Assembly: GCF_000019085.1 (NCBI RefSeq)
Contig: NC_010321.1
Coordinates: 876,501 to 940,500 of the forward strand
From: Thermoanaerobacter pseudethanolicus ATCC 33223
GTDB taxonomy: Bacteria; Bacillota; Thermoanaerobacteria; Thermoanaerobacterales; Thermoanaerobacteraceae
Reading direction: 5' to 3'
DNA: 64,000 bases
How positions within the stretch are numbered: the stretch's first letter is position 1; each line of letters begins with the position of its first letter. Under the pieces are notes generated by a model. It was not told the DNA's origin. It saw only the letters and a program-made list of their open reading frames with translations, and did not search any database. The translations under genes and the position numbers were made by a program. Positions 51,304-64,000 of the stretch are shown here, one piece after another.

Positions 51304-51370
51304 GGTGTTCTGGATTGTAGACAAGGTCTCATTTAAGAAGTTTTTGAATTTGGCATAAAAAGTTTGTCAA

Positions 51371-51418
51371 AAAATTGAGGTATTCTGACAATAAGTCAGA
51401 ATACCTCAATTTTTTTTG
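51371..51418 (+). terminator. Very strong terminator after mtaD
   Basis: 19-bp perfect stem: AAAATTGAGGTATTCTGAC (51371-51389) and its complement (51395-51413), loop AATAA, then a T-run to 51417. Confidence 0.95.
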
Positions 51419-51439: not shown

Positions 51440-51468
51440 TTGACAGTTTATTTGCAATACTATATAAT
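51440..51468 (+). promoter_or_regulatory. Consensus promoter of the shunt operon
   Basis: TTGACA (51440-51445), 17-bp spacer, TATAAT (51463-51468): a perfect match to the housekeeping sigma consensus, immediately upstream of a palindromic operator. Confidence 0.9.
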
Positions 51469-51473
51469 TTTCT

Positions 51474-51502
51474 CAGAACAACTTGTCAGACAAGTTGTTC
51501 TG
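51474..51502 (+). promoter_or_regulatory. 14-bp-arm palindromic operator, probable site for the GntR/HutC regulator
   Basis: CAGAACAACTTGTC (51474-51487), one central A, GACAAGTTGTTCTG (51489-51502): perfect symmetry. It covers the expected transcription start. GntR/HutC proteins bind such palindromes and repress by blocking initiation. The regulator is the second gene of the operon. Confidence 0.72.
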
Positions 51503-51532
51503 CAAAATGATTAAAAATCGAGGGTGATGACG

Positions 51533-52180
51533 TTGCTAATGCAATCAGAAAGGGAACAAATAGTAGAATATGGTAAAAAACTCATAACCTCTAATCTTAC
51601 CAAAGGTACAGGTGGAAACTTAAGTATTTATAATCGAGAAAAAGGATTAATGGCTATAACTCCTTCTGGAATGGATTATTTTGAAATTCGACCGGAAGAT
51701 ATTGTTGTGATGGATTTAGATGGCAAAAGGATAGAAGGCGATAGAACTCCTTCCTCGGAATATGAAATGCATAGAATTTTTTATGCTAATAGGCAGGATA
51801 TAAATGCCATTATACATACACATCCAGTGTATTCTACTACTCTTGCCTGTTTAAATTGGGACCTTCCACCAGTTCACTATTTAGTAGCTTTAGCTGGACC
51901 AAATGTGAGATGTGCGAAATATGCGACTTTTGGTACTAAAGAATTAGCGGAAAATGCTTTTGAAGCAATGAAGGACAGAAAAGCTGTTTTATTAGCTAAT
52001 CATGGATTACTAGTGGGAGCCGAAGACCTTCCAAATGCTTTTAATATAAGTGAACAGATTGAATATGTTGCGGAGTTGTACTATAGAGCAAAGTCCATAG
52101 GAGAACCGGTAATTCTTTCTGAAGATGAGATGAAATTGATGTTAGAAAAATTTAAAACTTATGGACAAGTTAAAAAATAA
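51533..52180 (+). CDS. Class II aldolase (FucA/Ald2 type)
   Basis: About 215 residues. Class II aldolase zinc and catalytic motifs: GGNLSIYNREKGLMAITPSG, the acid in SEYEMHRIFYANR, zinc histidines in IIHTHPVYSTTLACL, and LLANHGLLVG. Relatives cleave fuculose- or rhamnulose-phosphate; beside mtnP/mtnA the DHAP-shunt aldolase (5-methylthioribulose- or 5-deoxyribulose-1-phosphate to DHAP plus an aldehyde) is the better call. TTG 51533 has GAGGGTG seven bases upstream; other in-frame starts fit less well. Confidence 0.82.
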   Translation: MLMQSEREQIVEYGKKLITSNLTKGTGGNLSIYNREKGLMAITPSGMDYFEIRPEDIVVMDLDGKRIEGDRTPSSEYEMHRIFYANRQDINAIIHTHPVYSTTLACLNWDLPPVHYLVALAGPNVRCAKYATFGTKELAENAFEAMKDRKAVLLANHGLLVGAEDLPNAFNISEQIEYVAELYYRAKSIGEPVILSEDEMKLMLEKFKTYGQVKK

Positions 52181-52196
52181 TTTTAGGAAGGATAGT

Positions 52197-52937
52197 ATGA
52201 CAGAGTTTAGAAAAAGTAAGAAGTCTGTTTCTTTAAGCCAAGAAGTAAAGAAAAAAATATTGGAGTACATAGAAAAAGAAAATTTACAACCAGATGATAA
52301 ATTACCTTCGGAAAGTCAACTGACAAAAATGTTCAAGATTAGTAGATATACTATAAGAGAGGCTTTGGCCCTTTTAGAACAGGAAAAGATAATATATAAA
52401 ATTAAAGGTAAGGGTACTTTTGTAAACAAAAAGCCTATACAGATAAAGAGTGGATTAGAATATTTGGATAGCATAACAGAAATTATTAGAAAATTTGGAT
52501 ATGAGCCGGGAACAAAATGGGTTAGTATTGAGGAAACTATACCTACAAAAGATATGGTGAAAAAACTAAATCTTAAACCAAAGGAAAAGGTGATTACTTT
52601 TAAAAGAATTAGAACGGCTGATGGCAAACCTGCTGCTTTTTTAGTAGATACAGTTGCGAAAAAAATACTTGGTAACAAAAAACCTGATCAAATTAATTTT
52701 GAATCCCTGTTTGAATACATGGAAAAGGAGTTTGGAATAATTATTGAATATGCCATTTCAGAAATTATACCGACTTTCCCTACTGAAGAGATGATTCAAT
52801 ATTTAGGTGTAGATAAAAATTCCCTGTTTTTGTTGCTTTATCAATTACATTATGACAAAGAAGGAAGGACTATATTTTATTCTTTAGATTATTTTGATCC
52901 AAAAATATTTAAATTTAAAGTTATACGAAGTCGGTAA
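52197..52937 (+). CDS. GntR/HutC-family transcriptional repressor
   Basis: 246 residues. N-terminal winged helix: LQPDDKLPSESQLTKMFKIS, RYTIREALALLEQEKIIYKI, KGKGTFV. C-terminal UTRA ligand domain (FKRIRTADGKPAAFLVDTV, LLLYQLHYDKEGRTIFYSLDYFDP). It likely senses a phosphorylated intermediate or nucleoside of the pathway and binds the palindrome at 51474-51502. ATG 52197 follows aggaaggat. Confidence 0.88.
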   Translation: MTEFRKSKKSVSLSQEVKKKILEYIEKENLQPDDKLPSESQLTKMFKISRYTIREALALLEQEKIIYKIKGKGTFVNKKPIQIKSGLEYLDSITEIIRKFGYEPGTKWVSIEETIPTKDMVKKLNLKPKEKVITFKRIRTADGKPAAFLVDTVAKKILGNKKPDQINFESLFEYMEKEFGIIIEYAISEIIPTFPTEEMIQYLGVDKNSLFLLLYQLHYDKEGRTIFYSLDYFDPKIFKFKVIRSR

Positions 52938-52961
52938 ATTAAGTTGGAAGAAGGGATAAGA

Positions 52962-53918
52962 ATGAGGGGCTTGCATTTTGATAGCAAGTTAGAGCTGCGG
53001 ACTGATTTGCAAAAGCCTAAGGCCCAAAAAGGCGAATCTTTGATTAAAGTTGTGTTGGCTTCTATCTGCAATACAGATATTGAGATAATGAAAGGATACA
53101 AGAATTTTAAGGGAATATTAGGCCATGAATTTGTAGGAATAGTAGAGGAATCTGATGACCCTAATTTAATAGGAAAAAGAGTAGTAGGCGATATCAATAT
53201 AGCCTGTGGTAAATGTGACCTTTGTAGAATTGGACTTTACCACCATTGCCGTAATAGAAAAGTATTAGGGATAAAGGATAAGGATGGCGCTTTTGCTGAA
53301 TATCTTACGCTGCCAAATAAAAACCTTTATATTGTACCAAATGAAATCAAAGATGAAGAAGCAGTTTTTACGGAACCTATTGCTGCAGCTTTAGAAATTA
53401 TTGAGATGTATCACGTAAAACCCACTGATAAAGTAATAATAATTGGGGATGGTAAATTATCACAGTTTATTACTCAAGTTGTTGCTCTTACTGGGGCTAA
53501 TTTATATGTGGTAGGGAAGCATCAAGAAAAGCTGGATTACCTAAAAAGTAAAGCAAATATTATTTTACTAGATAATTTAGATAGACTAAGTTTAAAAAAT
53601 AAATTTGATATTGCTATTGAATGTACAGGAAATGAAGGAGGTTTGCAATTAGCTCAAGAATTAGTAAAACCTACAGGTACTATTATATTAAAAAGTACCT
53701 ACAATTTCCTTGCTACTCTGAGTCCCACTGATTGGGTTGTTAATGAAATAAAAATGGTAGGTACGCGGTGTGGACCTATGGAAGCAGCCCTGAGACTACT
53801 CCAGAGAAAATTGATTTCTACAGATTATTTGATAAGTGGCATCTATTCTTTAGAGGAATATCAAGAGGCTTTTTCAAAAAAGAATAAATTAAAAGCAGTT
53901 ATAGATCTGCGAAAATAA
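52962..53918 (+). CDS. Zinc-dependent medium-chain alcohol dehydrogenase
   Basis: About 318 residues. Catalytic zinc ligands CNTDIE and GHEFVG, structural-zinc cysteines in ACGKCDLCRIGLYHHC, EPIAAALEI, and nucleotide-binding region VIIIGDGKLSQF. In this setting it probably reduces the aldehyde released by the aldolase (2-methylthioacetaldehyde or acetaldehyde) to the alcohol. The ATG at 52962 follows agaaggga. Specific substrate not shown by sequence. Confidence 0.82.
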   Translation: MRGLHFDSKLELRTDLQKPKAQKGESLIKVVLASICNTDIEIMKGYKNFKGILGHEFVGIVEESDDPNLIGKRVVGDINIACGKCDLCRIGLYHHCRNRKVLGIKDKDGAFAEYLTLPNKNLYIVPNEIKDEEAVFTEPIAAALEIIEMYHVKPTDKVIIIGDGKLSQFITQVVALTGANLYVVGKHQEKLDYLKSKANIILLDNLDRLSLKNKFDIAIECTGNEGGLQLAQELVKPTGTIILKSTYNFLATLSPTDWVVNEIKMVGTRCGPMEAALRLLQRKLISTDYLISGIYSLEEYQEAFSKKNKLKAVIDLRK

Positions 53919-53939: not shown

Positions 53940-54977
53940 ATGAAAGAAATTAAATCAATAGAGTTTAAAAACGAAGTTTTGTATTTAATTGACCAAAGGA
54001 AATTACCTAATAGTTATGAGATTTTTGAATGCAAAACTTATAGGGATGTAAATTTTGCTATAAAAGAAATGGTAGTAAGAGGGGCTCCTGCTATTGGTGC
54101 TGCAGCAGCCTATGGTGTTGTGCTGGCAGCTAAAGAATTTCTCAAAGAAGATAGAGAAATATTTTTTGAAAAAATAGAGGAGGCCTTAGAAGTTATTGCA
54201 AACTCGAGACCTACAGCTGTAAATCTTATGTGGGCAGTAAAAAGGATGAAGAAAGTTATAGAGAAAAACAAGGAGTTAGAACTAATAGATATATATCAAG
54301 CTTTAAAAAAGGAAGCAGATAGTATTTATTTAGAAGATATAGAGACTAATAAAAAAATGGCTAAGTTTGGTAACGAAGTAATTAAAGAAAATGCTGTTAT
54401 TTTAACCCACTGCAATACAGGAGCGCTTGCCACTGTAGGATATGGTACAGCCTTAGGAGTCATTAGAGAGGCTCACTATAGTGGTAAGAATATATTTGTG
54501 TACGCTGATGAGACAAGGCCTCGATTACAGGGCAGTAAGTTGACAGCTTGGGAATTAGTACAAGAAGGAATTCCTGCAAAATTAATTGCTGATAGTGTTG
54601 CTGCTACTTTAATAAGGGATGGGAAAATAGATGTGATATTAGTAGGAGCTGATAGAATTGCTTTAAATGGAGATACTGCTAACAAGATTGGGACTTTTAT
54701 GTTATCTGTAATTGCAAAAGTATATAATGTTCCCTTTTATGTAGTAGCTCCTACCAGTACAATTGATTTTGAAATTGAGAGCGGAAAAGAAATAATAATA
54801 GAAGAAAGAAGTCCTGAGGAAGTTACTCATATAAACGGTGTTAGAATTGCTCCAGAGGGGATAGAAGTATACAATCCAGCTTTTGATGTGACTCCTCATG
54901 AAAACATCACGGGTATAATAACAGAAAAAGGGATAATTAAACCTCCATATAAAGAAAATATATTAAAACTAAAGTGA
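53940..54977 (+). CDS. mtnA: Methylthioribose-1-phosphate isomerase MtnA
   Basis: 345 residues. MVVRGAPAIGAAAAYGVVLAA, RPTAVNLMWAV, LTHCNTGALATVGYGTALGVI (catalytic Cys), DETRPRLQGSKLTAWEL, GADRIALNGDTANKIGT. Converts methylthioribose-1-P (or 5-deoxyribose-1-P) to the ribulose form used by the aldolase. Strong gaggtgaaaaa RBS. Confidence 0.95.
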   Translation: MKEIKSIEFKNEVLYLIDQRKLPNSYEIFECKTYRDVNFAIKEMVVRGAPAIGAAAAYGVVLAAKEFLKEDREIFFEKIEEALEVIANSRPTAVNLMWAVKRMKKVIEKNKELELIDIYQALKKEADSIYLEDIETNKKMAKFGNEVIKENAVILTHCNTGALATVGYGTALGVIREAHYSGKNIFVYADETRPRLQGSKLTAWELVQEGIPAKLIADSVAATLIRDGKIDVILVGADRIALNGDTANKIGTFMLSVIAKVYNVPFYVVAPTSTIDFEIESGKEIIIEERSPEEVTHINGVRIAPEGIEVYNPAFDVTPHENITGIITEKGIIKPPYKENILKLK

Positions 54978-54987
54978 GGGAGATAGG

Positions 54988-56712
54988 ATGTCAGTTATTG
55001 AAACAAATGTTAATTCAAAGGAGATTGTGATAAAGGATTTAACTTTTAGATATAAAGACCAAAAAGAAAGAAATGCAATAGAAAATATTAACTTAGAAAT
55101 TGAAAAAGGAGAATTTGTAGTGATTATGGGACCAAGTGGGGCAGGGAAATCTACATTAGCGCAATGCTTAAATGGCCTCATCCCTCATTTTACAAAAGGG
55201 CACTATAGCGGAGATGTTATAGTGAAAGGTATAAAAGTAAAGGAAACAAGAGTAAGCAAGATGGCAAAAGAGATAGGGCTCGTGTTTCAAGATTTTGAAT
55301 CACAACTATTTTCTACAAACACAAGGTTGGAAATAGCTTTTGGTCCGGAAAATTTTGGAGTAGAAAGAGAAGAAATACAAAGACGAATAGAGAGAATATT
55401 AAAAATTGTTAATTTAGAAGGACTTGAAGATAGACAGCCTTCTACTCTTTCTGGTGGTCAAAAGCAAAGATTAGCTATAGGTTCTGTGTTAGCATGTATG
55501 CCAAGTATAATCTGTATGGATGAACCTACTACTGATTTAGATCCGATAGGCAAAATAGGTATTTTTAATATTGCAAAAGAATTACATAAAGATAAAGATT
55601 TGACTCTGATTATAATAGAGCATGAAACGGAAGAGGCGTTGAATGCTGATAGAGTGATTATAATGGAAAAAGGTAGAATTATAAAAGATGGGAAACCTGA
55701 AGAAATTCTCAAAGAAGTAGAATTAATGGAAGAAATAGGAATAATGCCTTTGCAAATTCCCAAGTACTTTTTACAAGTTTCTTCTTTAAAAAGAGAAGAA
55801 CTACCACTTACTTATGAAGAAGGGATTGAGAGGTTTAAAGAATTAGGACTTAAAATAGACGAGGATAAGTATAATGAAATTCTTAGGAAAGAAGAGGAAA
55901 GAGAACAAAGTTATGGTGATGTGATAATAGATGTTAAAGATGTAGAGCATGTGTATGCTAATGGTACAAAAGCATTAGATGGAATTAACTTGCAGATAAA
56001 AGAAGGAGAATTTTTAGCACTTTTAGGACATAATGGAAGTGGCAAAACTACGTTGGCAAAACATTTAAATTGTCTCTTAAAACCTACCAGTGGTAGTGTG
56101 ATAGTATATGGAAAAGATACTAAAAAGTCGAATGTATTTGAAATAGGAAATTATGTAGGGTATGCTTTTCAAAATCCCGACCATCAAATATTTGCAGATA
56201 CCGTATATGATGAAATAGCTTTTGGACCTCGTATGAGAGGGTGTTCTGAAGCAGAAGTGAAGGAAAGAGTAAGTGAAGCATTAAAAGCTGTTGATATGGA
56301 GGGTTTTGAAAAAGAAGATCCTTTTTCACTATCTAAAGGAGAAAGACAAAGAATTGCTGTGGCTTCAATTTTAGCAGCAAGGCCAAAAGTCATTATTCTG
56401 GATGAACCTACTACTGGGTTAGATTATAAAGAACAGAAGAGAATGATGGAATTAGTGAAAAAATTGAATGAGAGTGGCCATACAATAGTGATGATAACTC
56501 ATACAATGTGGATTGTATCAGAGTACGCTCATAAAGTAGCTGTGATGAAAGATGGCAAAATAGAAATGTATGGCAAAGTAAGGGATGTATTCAGAGAAGA
56601 CGAAAAATTTTTTCAACTTTTTTTAAAAACACCTCCTATTGTTAGCATGAGTAATAGGTTGGGTAAAACTTTTTTGTCAGTAGAAGAAATGGTAAGTTGC
56701 ACAAGGAGGTAA
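54988..56712 (+). CDS. ECF transporter tandem ATPase (EcfA1-EcfA2 fusion)
   Basis: 574 residues with two ABC ATPase domains. First: GPSGAGKST, LSGGQKQRLAIGSVLA, ICMDEPTTDLD. Second (from about residue 310): GHNGSGKTT, LSKGERQRIAVASIL, VIILDEPTTGLD. Each has the ECF-type coupling Q-loop (VFQDFESQLFS; AFQNPDHQIFA). Energy module for the T and S components that follow. Fusion of the two EcfA copies is a known variant. Confidence 0.92.
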   Translation: MSVIETNVNSKEIVIKDLTFRYKDQKERNAIENINLEIEKGEFVVIMGPSGAGKSTLAQCLNGLIPHFTKGHYSGDVIVKGIKVKETRVSKMAKEIGLVFQDFESQLFSTNTRLEIAFGPENFGVEREEIQRRIERILKIVNLEGLEDRQPSTLSGGQKQRLAIGSVLACMPSIICMDEPTTDLDPIGKIGIFNIAKELHKDKDLTLIIIEHETEEALNADRVIIMEKGRIIKDGKPEEILKEVELMEEIGIMPLQIPKYFLQVSSLKREELPLTYEEGIERFKELGLKIDEDKYNEILRKEEEREQSYGDVIIDVKDVEHVYANGTKALDGINLQIKEGEFLALLGHNGSGKTTLAKHLNCLLKPTSGSVIVYGKDTKKSNVFEIGNYVGYAFQNPDHQIFADTVYDEIAFGPRMRGCSEAEVKERVSEALKAVDMEGFEKEDPFSLSKGERQRIAVASILAARPKVIILDEPTTGLDYKEQKRMMELVKKLNESGHTIVMITHTMWIVSEYAHKVAVMKDGKIEMYGKVRDVFREDEKFFQLFLKTPPIVSMSNRLGKTFLSVEEMVSCTRR

Positions 56713-56720
56713 ATTAAAAA

Positions 56721-57479
56721 ATGGATATGTTTCTGTATCTAGATAAAGATAGCTTTTTACATAAACTTGACCCACGTACAAAAATTTTCGTTATGCTTGT
56801 AAGCTTTGCAATAGCTCTCATGTTTAGTTCTTTAACAGTTCTTTTACTCTTATCAGCAGTGATAATTGTATATGGTTATATAGGGAAGGTACTTTCTAAT
56901 CTTAAACGCATACAAGTAATTTTAATTATGATTGCTCTTATGTCGATTTTGTTATGGGCCTTTACTTATCCAGGAACTACTCGCCTTTGGGGGCCAATAA
57001 CAAAAGAAGGAATAATTTATGGCATAGCTATAGGATTAAAATTTGATATTATGATAATTTCAGGAATGATTTTTTTAAGTTCTACAAAAATTGAAGAAAT
57101 ATCTCTCGGCTTAGTTAAATTAGGCATACCTTATAGGCCTGCTTTTGCTTTTTCTACAGCTATTAGATTGGTTCCAATGATAGTAGCTACTAGTTACACT
57201 ATAACTCAGGCACAAAAATCAAGGGGATTAGATTTAGATACAGGTAGTTTTCTTCAGAGAATCAAAAAATATATTCCTTTATTAATACCTGTTTTGATTT
57301 CTGTAATACGACAAGCAAATATATTGGCTATGGCTTTAGAATCAAAAGGATTTGGATATAGCGACAGGAGGACAAATTATTTGGAAATAAAATATACAGC
57401 TAAAGATTATATACTAATAGCAATCGCAATTGTAGTATTGATAATTGCTATATTTTTCAAAGTTAAATACAAAATGTAG
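56721..57479 (+). CDS. ECF transporter transmembrane protein EcfT
   Basis: 252 residues, about five to six helices. MFLYLDKDSFLHKLDPRTKI start; the two Ala-Arg-Gly-type coupling motifs appear as TQAQKSRGLDLD and LAMALESKGFGY. It connects the ATPases with the substrate-binding S component. Adjacent to mtnP. Confidence 0.9.
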   Translation: MDMFLYLDKDSFLHKLDPRTKIFVMLVSFAIALMFSSLTVLLLLSAVIIVYGYIGKVLSNLKRIQVILIMIALMSILLWAFTYPGTTRLWGPITKEGIIYGIAIGLKFDIMIISGMIFLSSTKIEEISLGLVKLGIPYRPAFAFSTAIRLVPMIVATSYTITQAQKSRGLDLDTGSFLQRIKKYIPLLIPVLISVIRQANILAMALESKGFGYSDRRTNYLEIKYTAKDYILIAIAIVVLIIAIFFKVKYKM

Positions 57480-57493
57480 GAGGTACATTTTAA

Positions 57494-58264
57494 ATGGAAA
57501 AGGCGATCATTGGTGGTACTGGATTTTACGAAATAGGACAAAAGGTGTCAAAAAAATTGGTAGAGACAAAATATGGAGAAGTGGAAATTGATATTGTGAC
57601 TATTGAAGGGGAAAAAATTGGCTTTTTGCCCCGACACGGGAAAGGTCATGCAGTTCCACCTCATCTCGTAAATTATAGGGCAAATATTATGGCATTGAAA
57701 CAAATGGGAGTAAAATATGTGTATGCAACAGCTGCAGTTGGTTCTTTTAATGAAAATTATGAGCCAGGGGATGTTGTAGTACTTAAAGATTTTTTAGATT
57801 TCACTAAATCGAGACCATTGACCTTTTTTGAAGGGGAAGATGGAGTGGTAAGACATGTAGATATGAGTGACCCTTATTGTAGCAATTTAAGGGCAAAATT
57901 TTACAATGCTGCTAAAAAAGAAGACTTATTAATAAAAGGAGATGCAGTTTATGTATGCACTGAAGGTCCACGATTTGAAACTGCACAAGAGATAAGAATG
58001 TATAAAAATTTAGGTGCCGATGTAGTAGGGATGACTAATGTTCCAGAAGTAATTTTAGCGAAAGAATTAGGAATGTGCTATGCTGCGGTGGGAATAGTTT
58101 CAAATTGGGCTACAGGAATGAAGGGCAGTATAACATTACATGAAATAAAAGATACTTTAGAATTGAACAAAGAAAAAGTGATAAAAACATTTATAAGAGT
58201 TTTTTTAGAAGAAAAATTAGATCAAAATCACTGTAGTTGTAATAGAGCAGTGATTGAATTATAA
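57494..58264 (+). CDS. mtnP: Methylthioadenosine (or methylthioinosine) phosphorylase
   Basis: 256 residues, nucleoside phosphorylase-II fold: IIGGTGFYEIGQ, FLPRHGKGHAVPPHLVNYRAN, ATAAVGSFNENYEPGD, YVCTEGPRFETAQEIRM, VVGMTNVPEVILAKELGMCYAAVGIVSNWATGM. Cleaves MTA, MTI or 5'-deoxyadenosine with phosphate to yield the ribose-1-P for MtnA. Lies between the transporter genes. Confidence 0.9.
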   Translation: MEKAIIGGTGFYEIGQKVSKKLVETKYGEVEIDIVTIEGEKIGFLPRHGKGHAVPPHLVNYRANIMALKQMGVKYVYATAAVGSFNENYEPGDVVVLKDFLDFTKSRPLTFFEGEDGVVRHVDMSDPYCSNLRAKFYNAAKKEDLLIKGDAVYVCTEGPRFETAQEIRMYKNLGADVVGMTNVPEVILAKELGMCYAAVGIVSNWATGMKGSITLHEIKDTLELNKEKVIKTFIRVFLEEKLDQNHCSCNRAVIEL

Positions 58265-58398: not shown

Positions 58399-59199
58399 GT
58401 GAAGGAAATTTTTAGCATGTGGAAGAACACTAAAATGGTTGTTTTAGTTGCTTTAAGTGCAGGATTATATGCAGCAGTTTTAATACCTTTCAAAGGTTTT
58501 GTCCTCATTCCTGGCATAACAGAAATAAGACCTGCTAATACTTTACCACCTGTTTTAGGATTACTCTTTGGACCTGCAGGGGCATGGGGTTCTGCTTTTG
58601 GAAATTTAATAGGTGATTTCTTTGGTACGCTGGGAGTTGGAAGTATTTTTGGATTTATAGGAAACTTTATGCAGGCTTATGTCCCTTATAAACTTTGGAG
58701 AAATCTTGGAATGTTGAAAGCAGACGACTTAGAACCAAACTTAAATTCTGGAAGAAAAGTTTTTGCATACATAGTAGCAGCATTAATTGGAGCTTTTGCA
58801 TGTGCTCTTACCATAGGATGGGGTTTGGACCTTCTTAAAATGGTTCCTTTTGCGGCTTTAGCTTCTATAATAGCTGTAAATAATTCTATTCCTTCAATTG
58901 TATTAGGAATACCTTTATTGTTAATTTTGTATCCAAGAATTAAGAAATGGAATTTATTGTGGACTGATATAATGGAGGAAGAAGATATTTCTAAACCGGA
59001 TGCAAAAGCAAGAGTAGCTGCAATAATAATGACGCTTGCAGTAATCATAGGACTTTTTGGTGGTTTAGCAGCAGCAGTAGGAGTAGGGCAGGCTTTGTTT
59101 GCTGCAGGTTTTGCAGCAGGTGGAACTGGTTCTCTTAGTGTACAAATAATAGCGGGATTAAGCACAATAATATTTATACTCTCTGGTTTATTGCAATAA
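58399..59199 (+). CDS. ECF transporter S component (substrate unknown)
   Basis: 266 residues, about seven helices. ALSAGLYAAVLIPFKGFVLIPG, EIRPANTLPPVLGLLFGPAGAWGSAFGNLIGDFFGTLGVG and FIGNFMQAYVPYKLW match ECF S proteins of the QueT/MtsT-like kind. A short extra C-terminal region (two further helices) follows. GTG start with a gaagggag site. Its operon suggests transport of a methylthio- or deoxy-nucleoside, or of a methionine precursor; not provable here. Confidence 0.82.
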   Translation: MKEIFSMWKNTKMVVLVALSAGLYAAVLIPFKGFVLIPGITEIRPANTLPPVLGLLFGPAGAWGSAFGNLIGDFFGTLGVGSIFGFIGNFMQAYVPYKLWRNLGMLKADDLEPNLNSGRKVFAYIVAALIGAFACALTIGWGLDLLKMVPFAALASIIAVNNSIPSIVLGIPLLLILYPRIKKWNLLWTDIMEEEDISKPDAKARVAAIIMTLAVIIGLFGGLAAAVGVGQALFAAGFAAGGTGSLSVQIIAGLSTIIFILSGLLQ

Positions 59200-59288: not shown

Positions 59289-60479
59289 ATGGGAGTAAAT
59301 AAAAACTATCGGTTTGACACAAAAGTAATTCATGGAAATGAGTTTAAGAAAAACCCTGAAAATGCTTTGAATCCTCCAATTTTCCAGACGACTACTTTTG
59401 TTTTTGATGACCTTGAACATGTTGAAAAGGTGATGTCTTTTCAATCTCAAGACTATGTTTATACAAGAGGTAATAATCCTACATTAAGATTATTTGAAAA
59501 CAGATTAGCGGAGTTAGAATATGGTAAAGGGGCAGTAGCTTTTTCTTCCGGGATGGCCGCTATTAGTTCAGTTTTATTTTCTCTTTTAAAACCCAAAGAT
59601 AATGTAATAATTCATAAGACTCTTTATGGTTCAAGTTATAACGTGGTGACAAATATTTTGCCTAAATATGGAGTAAATTATAAAATAGTGGATCTTACAG
59701 ATATAAGCGAATTAGAAAAAAGTATAGATGACTCTACAAAAGTTGTGTATTTTGAGACCCCTTCTAATCCAAATTTATCTATTATAGATATTGAAGAGGT
59801 TGCAAGGGTATGTCATAAAAAAGATATTAAAATTGTTGTTGATAATACTTTTGCTACCCCCTATTTTCAAAATCCTCTTCTATTGGGAGCCGATGTAGTT
59901 GTTCATAGTGCTACTAAATATATAGGAGGTCACGGTGATGCACTTGGGGGAGTTGCAGTTTCCCAAGATGAAAAGTATATACATTATTTAAAATTTGATT
60001 ATATGTGTGAATTTGGTGGAGTAATGAGTCCTTTCAATGCTTGGTTGATGTTGAGAGGTATAAAAACTTTAGGTATAAGAATGAGACAACATGAAAAAAA
60101 TGCAATAGAGGTAGCAAATTTTTTAAATTCGCATCCTAAAGTAAAAAACGTTATGTATCCTGGTCTTAAAAGTTTTAAAGGTTATGAAATAGCGAAAAAA
60201 CAAATGAGAGGATTCGGAGCTATCATAAGTTTTGAAATAGAGGGAGGAACCAAAAATTTAGAGAAGTTTATAAGTAATTTAAGATTGTGTCAGTTAGCGG
60301 TAAGCTTGGGAGATACAGAAACATTAGTGGAAGTACCTTCCCTTATGACTCACAGAGGGTATCCAAAAGAAAAACTTGTGGAGTTTGGATTGAGTGAAAG
60401 TATGGTGAGAATATCAGTAGGGCTCGAAGATTACAATGATATCATAGAGGATTTAGATCAAGCTCTTAATCAAATTTAG
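59289..60479 (+). CDS. PLP-dependent Cys/Met-metabolism enzyme (gamma-family)
   Basis: 396 residues. YTRGNNPTLRLFENRLAELEYG, SSGMAAISSVLF, YFETPSNPNLSIIDIE, VVDNTFATPYFQNPL, and the PLP lysine motif VHSATKYIGGHGDALGG. The family includes methionine gamma-lyase, cystathionine gamma-synthase and O-acetylhomoserine sulfhydrylase; sequence alone does not separate them. It stands next to the methylthio-salvage genes, so methionine breakdown or resynthesis fits. Confidence 0.87.
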   Translation: MGVNKNYRFDTKVIHGNEFKKNPENALNPPIFQTTTFVFDDLEHVEKVMSFQSQDYVYTRGNNPTLRLFENRLAELEYGKGAVAFSSGMAAISSVLFSLLKPKDNVIIHKTLYGSSYNVVTNILPKYGVNYKIVDLTDISELEKSIDDSTKVVYFETPSNPNLSIIDIEEVARVCHKKDIKIVVDNTFATPYFQNPLLLGADVVVHSATKYIGGHGDALGGVAVSQDEKYIHYLKFDYMCEFGGVMSPFNAWLMLRGIKTLGIRMRQHEKNAIEVANFLNSHPKVKNVMYPGLKSFKGYEIAKKQMRGFGAIISFEIEGGTKNLEKFISNLRLCQLAVSLGDTETLVEVPSLMTHRGYPKEKLVEFGLSESMVRISVGLEDYNDIIEDLDQALNQI

Positions 60480-60499: not shown

Positions 60500-60793
60500 A
60501 TGCCTATTGTCAATTTAAGCCTGCAAGTATTGCCTGTAGTTTCTGAAGAAAATATATATCCAATTGTAGATAAAGTCATAGAATATATAAAGAGTACAGG
60601 TGTGAAGTATGTAGTAGGGCCAATGGAAACTACAATGGAAGGAGACCTTGATGCACTTTTAGAGATAGTGAAGAAAGCACAAGAAATTTGTATAAAAGAA
60701 GGTACAAATAGGGTCATCTCTATTGTAAAAATTGATTATAAACCGGAAGGAGTTACAATTGACGAGAAGATAAAAAAATATGAGAATCTTTAA
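60500..60793 (+). CDS. MTH1187-family thiamine-binding protein
   Basis: 97 residues: IVNLSLQVLPVVSEENIYPIVDKV, KSTGVKYVVGPMETTMEGDLDALL, VISIVKIDYKPEG. Ferredoxin-like fold of the MTH1187/YkoF superfamily, members of which bind thiamine or HMP. RBS gaggtgag before ATG. Confidence 0.82.
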   Translation: MPIVNLSLQVLPVVSEENIYPIVDKVIEYIKSTGVKYVVGPMETTMEGDLDALLEIVKKAQEICIKEGTNRVISIVKIDYKPEGVTIDEKIKKYENL

Positions 60794-62053: not shown

Positions 62054-62426
62054 TTGACAAATAATTTAATGCGTTATAGAATTAAAATAACACAATTTAA
62101 ATATGTGTGAAAACCAATGACCGGGAAGAGTAGATATCAGCGTTTAGTCAAAGCGAGCTCGGGAGGGTGGAAGCCGAGTACTGTAGCTGATATTGAATGG
62201 GCCCGTGAGGTGAGATGCGAACTTTAAGTAGCAGTATCCGGTAGTCTACCGTTAAAAAGACAGGGTATCGAGGAATTTCCGTACCCGAAAGAGTGGTCCT
62301 GTGTTAAAAAGGTGGCACAAGCGAGCATTTCGCCCTTTTGGTGAAATGCTTTTTTTTTTTAGTAATACAGGACAAATTGGGTGGCACCGCGAGTCACTTC
62401 GCCCCAATGGGCGGAGTGACTTTTTT
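62054..62426 (+). promoter_or_regulatory. Tryptophan-type T-box with duplicated antiterminator/terminator
   Basis: Promoter TTGACA (62054-62059), 17 bp, TAGAAT (62077-62082). One Stem I follows; its specifier loop 3' side reads TGAATGGG, giving TGG (Trp) at 62198-62200. Two T-box modules follow: GGTGGCACAAGCG (62311-62323) with terminator AGCATTTCGC/GTGAAATGCT (62324-62333/62341-62350) and ten T; then GGGTGGCACCGCG (62379-62391) with terminator AGTCACTTCGCCC/GGGCGGAGTGACT (62392-62404/62409-62421). Both TGGC bulges fit a discriminator G, as in tRNA-Trp. TCCTGTGTTA (62297-62306) can pair with TAATACAGGA (62363-62372) and enclose module 1. Confidence 0.88.
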
Positions 62427-62428
62427 AA

Positions 62429-64000
62429 GTGCGCCCGGCATGGGCGATAACTAGGCGGTGAAAGTCCGCTGTGGGCTTGGTAGTGGGAACCACTAGCCAA
62501 GAGCAAGGGTGTCCATCGTGAGGTGGAATCTGAAGGAAGCTTAAGGCAAAATCTCGGTCTGATGAACAAGAACCAGATAAGAGGCTGAATTGGGATGGAT
62601 GAGTTTGCGTAACAAAACGAAGTCCAACACTACCCGAATCCCATACAGTAAATCTGGCAGATATATGAGATGAAAGTTATCGTTCTTACCCGGGGAGGTC
62701 TCAAGGATAAGTCACTAAAGTGAACTCTGAAGTGACAACCCATACAGTGATGTATGGTTGAACCTTGAGAAGTCAGCAGAGGTCATAGTACTTATCTAGT
62801 CATGAATAGATAAGGAAGGGCCGAACGTTAGGAGGTTTTGGAAATCTTATGGACTCGAAAGATATGCAGAGACTGCAGACAACTCAACAAAGAGGCTATC
62901 CGTTGAATAGAGAAATGGAATTTCAAAAGACAACGGAAGTGCATAGTATATCATCGGCGTCAAAAGATAGAAGAAACGATGTACAAAGATATACCAGCAA
63001 GATGCTTGAAATGATAGTAGAACGAGGAAACATGAGAGCAGCATACAAGCGCGTTGTTGCAAATAAAGGAAGCCATGGAGTCGATGGGATGGAAGTAGAT
63101 GAACTTCTACCGTATCTCAAAGAAAACTGGGCAACCATAAAACAACAACTGCTGGAGGGGAAATACAAACCACAACCAGTGCGAAGAGTAGAAATTTCCA
63201 AACCAGATGGAGGAGTAAGACTACTAGGAATACCTACAGCACTAGATAGGCTAATACAACAAGCAATAGCCCAAATACTAAATAGAGTCTACAACCATAC
63301 ATTTTCTGATAGCAGTTATGGATTTAGACCAGGACGCAGTGCAAAAGACGCAATAAAAGCCGCAGAAGCATACATAAATGAAGGATACACATGGGTTGTA
63401 GATATGGACTTAGAAAAGTTCTTTGACAGAGTAAACCACGACATAATAATGTCCAAACTAGAAAAGCGGATAGGAGACAAAAGAGTACTAAAGTTAATAC
63501 GAAGATACCTAGAATCAGGAGTAATGATAAACGGAGTCAAAGTATCAACAGAAGAAGGGACACCCCAAGGAGGGCCATTAAGTCCCCTATTAGCAAACAT
63601 AATGTTGGACGAACTAGACAAAGAACTTGAGAAACGAGGGCATAAATTCTGCCGATATGCAGATGACTGCAACATATATGTAAAAAGCAGGTCTGCAGGA
63701 AACAGAGTAATGAAGAGCATAAAGAAATTCATAGAAAGCAAATTAAAACTAAAAGTCAACGAAGCAAAAAGTGCTGTAGATAGACCATGGAGAAGAAAAT
63801 TTCTTGGATTTTCATTCTACACAAAAGAAAACGAAGTAAGAATAAGAATCCATGAAAAATCCATCAAAAGGTTTAAGGAAAAAGTAAGAGAAATAACCAA
63901 TCGGAACAAGGGAATAAGCATGGAAAACAGAATAAAAAGACTAAATCAAATAACAACAGGATGGGTCAACTATTTTGGATTAGCAGACGCGAAAAGCATA
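62429..64000 (+). mobile_element. Group IIC intron (3' end beyond window)
   Basis: The 5' end GTGCGCCCGGCATGGGCG at 62429 and later stretches (GCAAGGGTGTCC, GGAATCTGAAGGAAGC, GATGAGTTTGCGTAACAAAA, TTACCCGGGGAGGTCT) resemble the Oceanobacillus group IIC ribozyme. The site is two bases after a terminator T-run, the known target preference of class C introns. The intron ORF starts at 62849. Confidence 0.92.
62849..64000 (+). CDS. ltrA: Group II intron reverse transcriptase/maturase LtrA (3' part beyond window)
   Basis: 384 codons visible, open to the window end. RT domain: ISKPDGGVRLLGIPTALDRL, SYGFRPGRSAKDAI, VVDMDLEKFFDRVNHD, GTPQGGPLSPLLANIMLD, catalytic RYADDCNIYVKS, RRKFLGFSFY, and the start of domain X/maturase (RLNQITTGWVNYF). 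No endonuclease domain is visible so far, as expected for class C. It reverse-transcribes and helps splice the intron. AGGAGG lies upstream of the ATG. Confidence 0.95.
   Translation, partial: MDSKDMQRLQTTQQRGYPLNREMEFQKTTEVHSISSASKDRRNDVQRYTSKMLEMIVERGNMRAAYKRVVANKGSHGVDGMEVDELLPYLKENWATIKQQLLEGKYKPQPVRRVEISKPDGGVRLLGIPTALDRLIQQAIAQILNRVYNHTFSDSSYGFRPGRSAKDAIKAAEAYINEGYTWVVDMDLEKFFDRVNHDIIMSKLEKRIGDKRVLKLIRRYLESGVMINGVKVSTEEGTPQGGPLSPLLANIMLDELDKELEKRGHKFCRYADDCNIYVKSRSAGNRVMKSIKKFIESKLKLKVNEAKSAVDRPWRRKFLGFSFYTKENEVRIRIHEKSIKRFKEKVREITNRNKGISMENRIKRLNQITTGWVNYFGLADAKSI

Follow-up and report, generated by a model that had tools for sequence, protein, structure and literature searches.

The window studied here, the whole 64-kb stretch of DNA to which all positions below refer, contains a consensus promoter followed by a set of genes that are tightly packed, from that of a class II aldolase to that of a thiamine-binding-type protein (Table 1). 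An MtnP-like protein, MtnA and a class II aldolase, the combination that marks a DHAP shunt operon, are encoded together, the substrate of the aldolase being predicted. This gene content is as expected for a DHAP shunt using MTA, a sulfur-containing waste nucleoside, and 5'-deoxyadenosine and provided with its own uptake system. Comparison with relatives indicates that the aldolase probably starts at the in-frame TTG at 51533, with GAGGGTG about 8 nt upstream. Elsewhere in the window, a T-box leader followed by a group II intron gives Rfam matches at 62108-62821.

Table 1. Features of the promoter region and of the downstream operon (positions in the window)
Feature	Position	Strand	Remark
Terminator-like hairpin with T run	51369..51415	+	Separates the promoter from the upstream amidohydrolase gene
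-35 hexamer TTGACA	51440..51445	+	Sequence read directly; conserved in G003 and G007
-10 hexamer TATAAT	51463..51468	+	17-nt spacer from the -35; TATAAT also in G003
Perfect palindrome CAGAACAACTTGTC-A-GACAAGTTGTTCTG	51474..51502	.	14+1+14, no mismatch
Predicted operator core CTTGTC-A-GACAAG	51482..51494	.	Half-site spacing GT-N3-AC; conserved across genomes
Class II aldolase, FucA-like; candidate Ald2 of the DHAP shunt	51524..52180	+	
GntR/UTRA (HutC-type) regulator, proposed repressor	52161..52937	+	Pfam GntR 1.1e-16, UTRA 5.8e-29
Zinc-type (MDR) dehydrogenase; candidate reductase of the aldehyde product	52944..53918	+	Role inferred
MtnA, methylthioribose-1-phosphate isomerase	53940..54977	+	TIGR00512, 482.9 bits (cut-off 279)
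Fused ECF transporter ATPase, two ABC halves	54988..56712	+	Named from reading the translation
ECF T component, CbiQ family	56721..57479	+	
MTA-phosphorylase-like protein (MtnP)	57494..58264	+	TIGR01694, 269.6 bits, just below the 274.85 cut-off; PNP_UDP_1
QueT-family ECF S component	58399..59199	+	
Cys/Met-metabolism PLP enzyme, methionine gamma-lyase-like	59289..60479	+	
Thiamine-binding/MTH1187-type small protein	60500..60793	+	Probably the last gene of the operon

A sequence-only reading of this DNA had described a TTGACA-17-TATAAT promoter and, over the start site, a perfect 14+1+14 palindrome said to be unusually long and symmetric. Direct reading of 51440-51468 and of 51474-51502 bears out both elements. 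The palindrome begins six bases past the end of the -10 hexamer, five bases lying between them, and overlaps the transcription start predicted about 7 nt after the -10. It is the sole perfect palindrome of the window with arms longer than 8 bp (loop of 0 or 1); when the window was randomised 60 times by a first-order Markov model, the longest arm was 13 bp, reached once. No second copy of the 29-mer was found in the window at up to 3 mismatches (0.00 expected); in the whole genome, the 21-bp centre has no other copy at up to 2 mismatches and one at 3. The palindrome is far above chance expectation and present as a single copy in the genome. The exact 29-mer was absent from the viral contigs searched.

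The second gene of the operon encodes, as the same reading had proposed, a regulator of the GntR/HutC type (PF00392, 60.7 bits for a cut-off of 27; PF07702, 101.1 bits for a cut-off of 23.8), which we predict to be a repressor. Its nearest solved structures by profile are those of NagR/YvoA (2wv0, 4u0v), and an AlphaFold model (3 rows, pLDDT 74, pTM 0.56) confirmed a NagR/DasR-like fold and nothing further. Orthologues were searched across the phylum (398 genomes) with a profile of three rows, the regulators of the genome analysed (G000), G003 and L066. Seven genomes (G000, G003, G243, G219, G111, G146 and G313) scored 266-484 bits and all others at most 193.7 bits, a clear gap, three of the seven orthologues being those that built the profile. 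Their identity to the window regulator is as low as 44%. In 7/7 genomes, the regulator gene is clustered with mtnA, mtnP or ECF genes; on the G111 contig (9.8 kb), no mtnA was seen. Moreover, ECF genes belong to six of the seven operons with the regulator versus two of seven without it; therefore, regulation may go together with uptake from outside.

The kinship of these regulators was computed from a tree of NagR and 40 other regulators, which included six shunt-linked rows (that of G003 was left out) and did not include NupR from Bacillus thuringiensis. The shunt-linked rows form their own clade (support 99/100), apart from the 34 others, many of which adjoin nucleoside-transport genes; the shunt regulators thus cluster separately from the nucleoside-linked ones. 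This suggests a clade of repressors dedicated to the MTA/5'-deoxyadenosine (DHAP) shunt, which would be sister or close to NupR-like regulators and have its box in common with them.

The conservation of the site was computed by scanning the 130 nt upstream of the operons for TGTCnGACA, with at most 1 of the 8 bases off. This motif occurs in all seven shunt promoters with a regulator (0.29 expected), and the five other spacings in 2, 0, 0, 0 and 2 of the same seven. The boxes are CTTGTCAGACAAG in G000 and G003, GATGTCAGACAAG in G243, G219 and G111, GACGTCAGACAAA in G146 and TTTGTCAGACAAG in G313. In G243 and G219 (L124 and L125), a second box, CTTGTCCTACAAA, lies upstream of gntR, 43 bp downstream of the first and near the start codon; it is possibly a second operator. 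The half-sites are 3 nt apart (GT-CAG-AC), the scan giving 7/7 at N3 and 0/7 at N4. In HutC-type sites, according to the part of PMC4494728 consulted, GT and AC are mostly 4 nt apart, with exceptions, and 3 nt apart in most FadR-type sites; the core therefore departs from the usual HutC trait, which is not strictly defining. The distance between the -10 and the core, read by eye, is about 5-17 nt in several promoters. Since it varies, it fits a steric block better than activation.

Hence, the palindrome expected before homologous operons recurs there as its core, and the idea of a 29-bp operator holds in part: the symmetry is real, but the conserved portion is a core of 13-15 bp and the outer arms are lineage-specific. 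Relatives do not keep the outer arms, and the full-length palindrome was therefore rejected as the conserved operator. In G000, these arms differ from those of G003, where the outer pairs are broken. They are nevertheless perfectly symmetric over 8 bp on each side, for which an origin by chance is unlikely, and they might be functional, the 29-bp site accommodating two dimers or extended contacts of a single one. This variant, which is compatible with an operator centred on the core, seems to us rather unlikely given the lack of conservation in G003. Furthermore, positions 9 and 14 of the right arm, compared by eye, are A in both G007 and G003 and G in G000, which suggests that the palindrome became fully symmetric within the G000 line.

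The palindrome could also act in RNA, as a stabilising or attenuating hairpin at the start of the transcript. A 12-bp stem would indeed form, and the 71-nt leader has a folding energy of -18.7 kcal/mol (z -2.9). However, only the DNA core is kept in relatives: in G003 the outer pairing is interrupted, and the two half-sites differ from each other in G243, G219, G111 and G146, so that no long stem is possible in these genomes. In addition, no Rfam match reaches the gathering threshold at the site. We consequently disfavour this hairpin reading, which appears very improbable compared with a DNA operator.

Among Thermoanaerobacter, seven genomes (G001, G002, G004, G005, G007, G008 and G009) have a shunt operon without an intact regulator. 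The box is found in only one of them, as a damaged, one-mismatch copy (G007, T. thermocopriae, close to G000), and the regulator of that strain is a 75-aa remnant. The match between intact site and regulator is 2/2 with it versus 0/7 without it (p 0.028), for two genomes that are possibly close kin and events that are not independent. Six of the ten differences between the promoter regions of G007 and G000 sit in the right arm of the palindrome. The T. thermocopriae operon (L067 6001-7254) also lacks the adh and ECF genes and has its mtnA split over two frames; since mtnA is affected as well, the decay of the site may be part of a general decay of the operon, or reflect a sequencing fault. In G005, the aldolase gene contains stops, and no matching aldolase at all was found in G006. 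In Thermoanaerobacter, the two genomes with the regulator (G000 and G003) have TATAAT as the -10 and the seven without it have TATGAT, perhaps a weaker promoter where repression was lost.

The genome encodes a second UTRA regulator (G000:C1:1875451-1876131, minus strand), 40% identical to the shunt regulator. It lies outside the shunt clade, in an operon that, from reading of the translations, comprises genes for a BmpA-like binding protein, an ABC transporter, and cytidine deaminase-like and phosphopentomutase-like proteins. The promoter of this nucleoside operon carries GATGTCAGACAAG 3' of a TATAAT, a box that has 11 of the 13 core bases in common with the shunt operator and differs from it by two. 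When 18 nucleoside-type promoters were scanned for TGTCnGACA at up to one mismatch, 13 had the box (0.46 expected) and any other spacing was found in at most 2. Three of the others (G129, G296 and G020) have it only at 2 mismatches, that of G022 falls beyond the 130 nt scanned, and G034 shows no clear box, its first gene not being found in the stretch. A GTCnGAC-type box closely following the -10, the trait of NupR-type sites, is common to the shunt promoter and most of these nucleoside-type promoters. The same GATGTCAGACAAG also lies at G000:C1:1990927-1990937 (L133 1501-1511), between mtlD-like and secreted 5'-nucleotidase-like genes and 3' of a minus-strand TATAAT; this box likely belongs to the nucleoside regulon.

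Given this resemblance, the paralogue, a NupR-like GntR protein, might itself bind the shunt site, which would make the shunt operon a member of the nucleoside regulon. The distribution of the exact 11-mer TGTCAGACAAG in ten Thermoanaerobacter genomes argues against it as the sole binder. The paralogue is kept in 10/10 genomes, and the 11-mer occurs at the 5'-nucleotidase gene in all ten (as a weak match in G003) and at the nucleoside operon in eight, whereas it is found in the shunt promoter in only two, those with the shunt regulator. Since the intact box is present only where the shunt regulator is, and the paralogue persists where the site is lost, the shunt box appears to track its own regulator, in two genomes that are related. 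We hence regard control by the paralogue as improbable, although cross-binding to the shunt operator is possible because the boxes are only two bases apart. The simple in-operon switch proposed from the sequence therefore stands as to the co-occurrence of regulator and site, but it is not isolated, as a paralogous GntR protein with nearly the same box is encoded in the genome. The 11-mer is also found inside a degV-like gene in 7/10 Thermoanaerobacter genomes. A repeat array resembling TGTCnGACA lies between parM-like and small protein genes (L129 1340-1600, G000:C1 near 73292); it looks like a partition-type site with an accidental resemblance to the operator. Both the copies in this array and those in the degV-like gene were taken as unrelated to the operator.

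The palindrome thus very probably serves as operator for the GntR/UTRA repressor of the same operon (its second gene), which would bind the core as a dimer and be released by a sugar phosphate. With this co-occurrence of site and regulator computed, we infer binding, repression, autoregulation and effector as follows. The dimer would sit on the central CTTGTC-A-GACAAG, just 3' of the consensus promoter, and would stop initiation of the aldolase-gntR-adh-mtnA-ECF-mtnP operon, its own gene included. Phosphorolysis of MTA or 5'-deoxyadenosine would then yield a sugar phosphate belonging to the pathway, in our best guess 5-methylthioribose or 5-deoxyribose carrying a 1-phosphate. This candidate effector would bind the UTRA domain and bring the repressor off the DNA.

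The residues of the UTRA domain are consistent with such a ligand. In NagR, the phosphate ligands described in the part of PMC4333415 consulted are Thr90, Ser165, Ile166, Tyr167, Arg133 and Arg135. The aligned positions here (profile alignment, own reading) are T106, S182, L183, F184, R149 and R151; T106, R149, R151, S182 and F184 do not vary among the seven shunt regulators. The conservation of these phosphate-pocket residues favours a phosphorylated effector and points to a phosphorylated sugar, perhaps 5-methylthioribose-1-phosphate. The nucleoside paralogue has the same residues too, and they hence single out no effector. The conserved pocket, and the report that nucleosides did not release NupR, suggest that sugar phosphates are candidate effectors for both proteins.

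The half-sites may also tell how the two boxes diverged. In four of the five more distant genomes, the left half is GATGTC or GACGTC, as in the nucleoside box. It is CTTGTC in G000 and G003, the two genomes with both regulators at the search threshold, at which a divergent paralogue elsewhere could be missed. A speculative scenario, which we hold as doubtful, is that the two paralogous repressors inherited one ancestral box, GATGTC-A-GACAAG. Where they coexist, in Thermoanaerobacter, the shunt operator would have changed to CTTGTC-A-GACAAG, which is symmetric, and the two circuits would thus have been insulated from each other. Later, in the G000 line, the outer arms would have acquired perfect symmetry, perhaps through a single template switch at an imperfect palindrome. 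The idea of insulation comes from the finding of CTTGTC in G000 and G003, two related genomes in which both regulators are present. Coexisting paralogues with boxes two bases apart would offer a compact case of cross-talk avoidance after duplication of a repressor.

For the DHAP shunt of Clostridia-type bacteria, these data provide predictions of a regulator, its operator and its regulon. In the literature searched, titles and abstract beginnings revealed no GntR regulator of this pathway, and the motif string retrieved no title on bacterial gene regulation. Likewise, nothing on this motif was found in the parts consulted of publications about regulators of C. bescii and C. thermocellum. The type of switch is known, and its dedicated shunt member seems undescribed so far. 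The only shunt regulator found in these searches is the unrelated MtnR of E. coli (in the part of PMC12632272 consulted); if our prediction is true, one pathway would be under convergent control by two repressor families.

Three known systems can be compared with this one, each from the part of its source consulted. NagR/YvoA of Bacillus subtilis has the same GntR wHTH and UTRA architecture and conserved phosphate-ligand residues, but it binds GlcN-6-P and GlcNAc-6-P and its sugar-contact positions are not the same (PMC4333415). NupR (NagR2) of B. thuringiensis BMB171 is, like the protein proposed here, a GntR/HutC repressor of its own gene, and its EMSA-tested sites such as AAAGGTCAGACATCTTACGT (PMC9430930, Table 1) have, as read from that table, the GTCAGAC core and GT-N3-AC spacing found here. 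The comparison with NupR was made at the level of the sites. NupR controls nucleoside uptake and not the MTA/5'-deoxyadenosine shunt, and its reported ligand is zinc, nucleosides and nucleobases being without effect (PMC9430930). MtnR (YjhU) represses the DHAP-shunt operon of E. coli from a proposed site that overlaps the promoter, with a phosphorylated intermediate suggested as effector. However, it belongs to the DeoR family, whereas the regulator described here is a GntR/UTRA protein by Pfam; its gene is found downstream of its operon in the opposite orientation, and CRP also acts there (PMC12632272).
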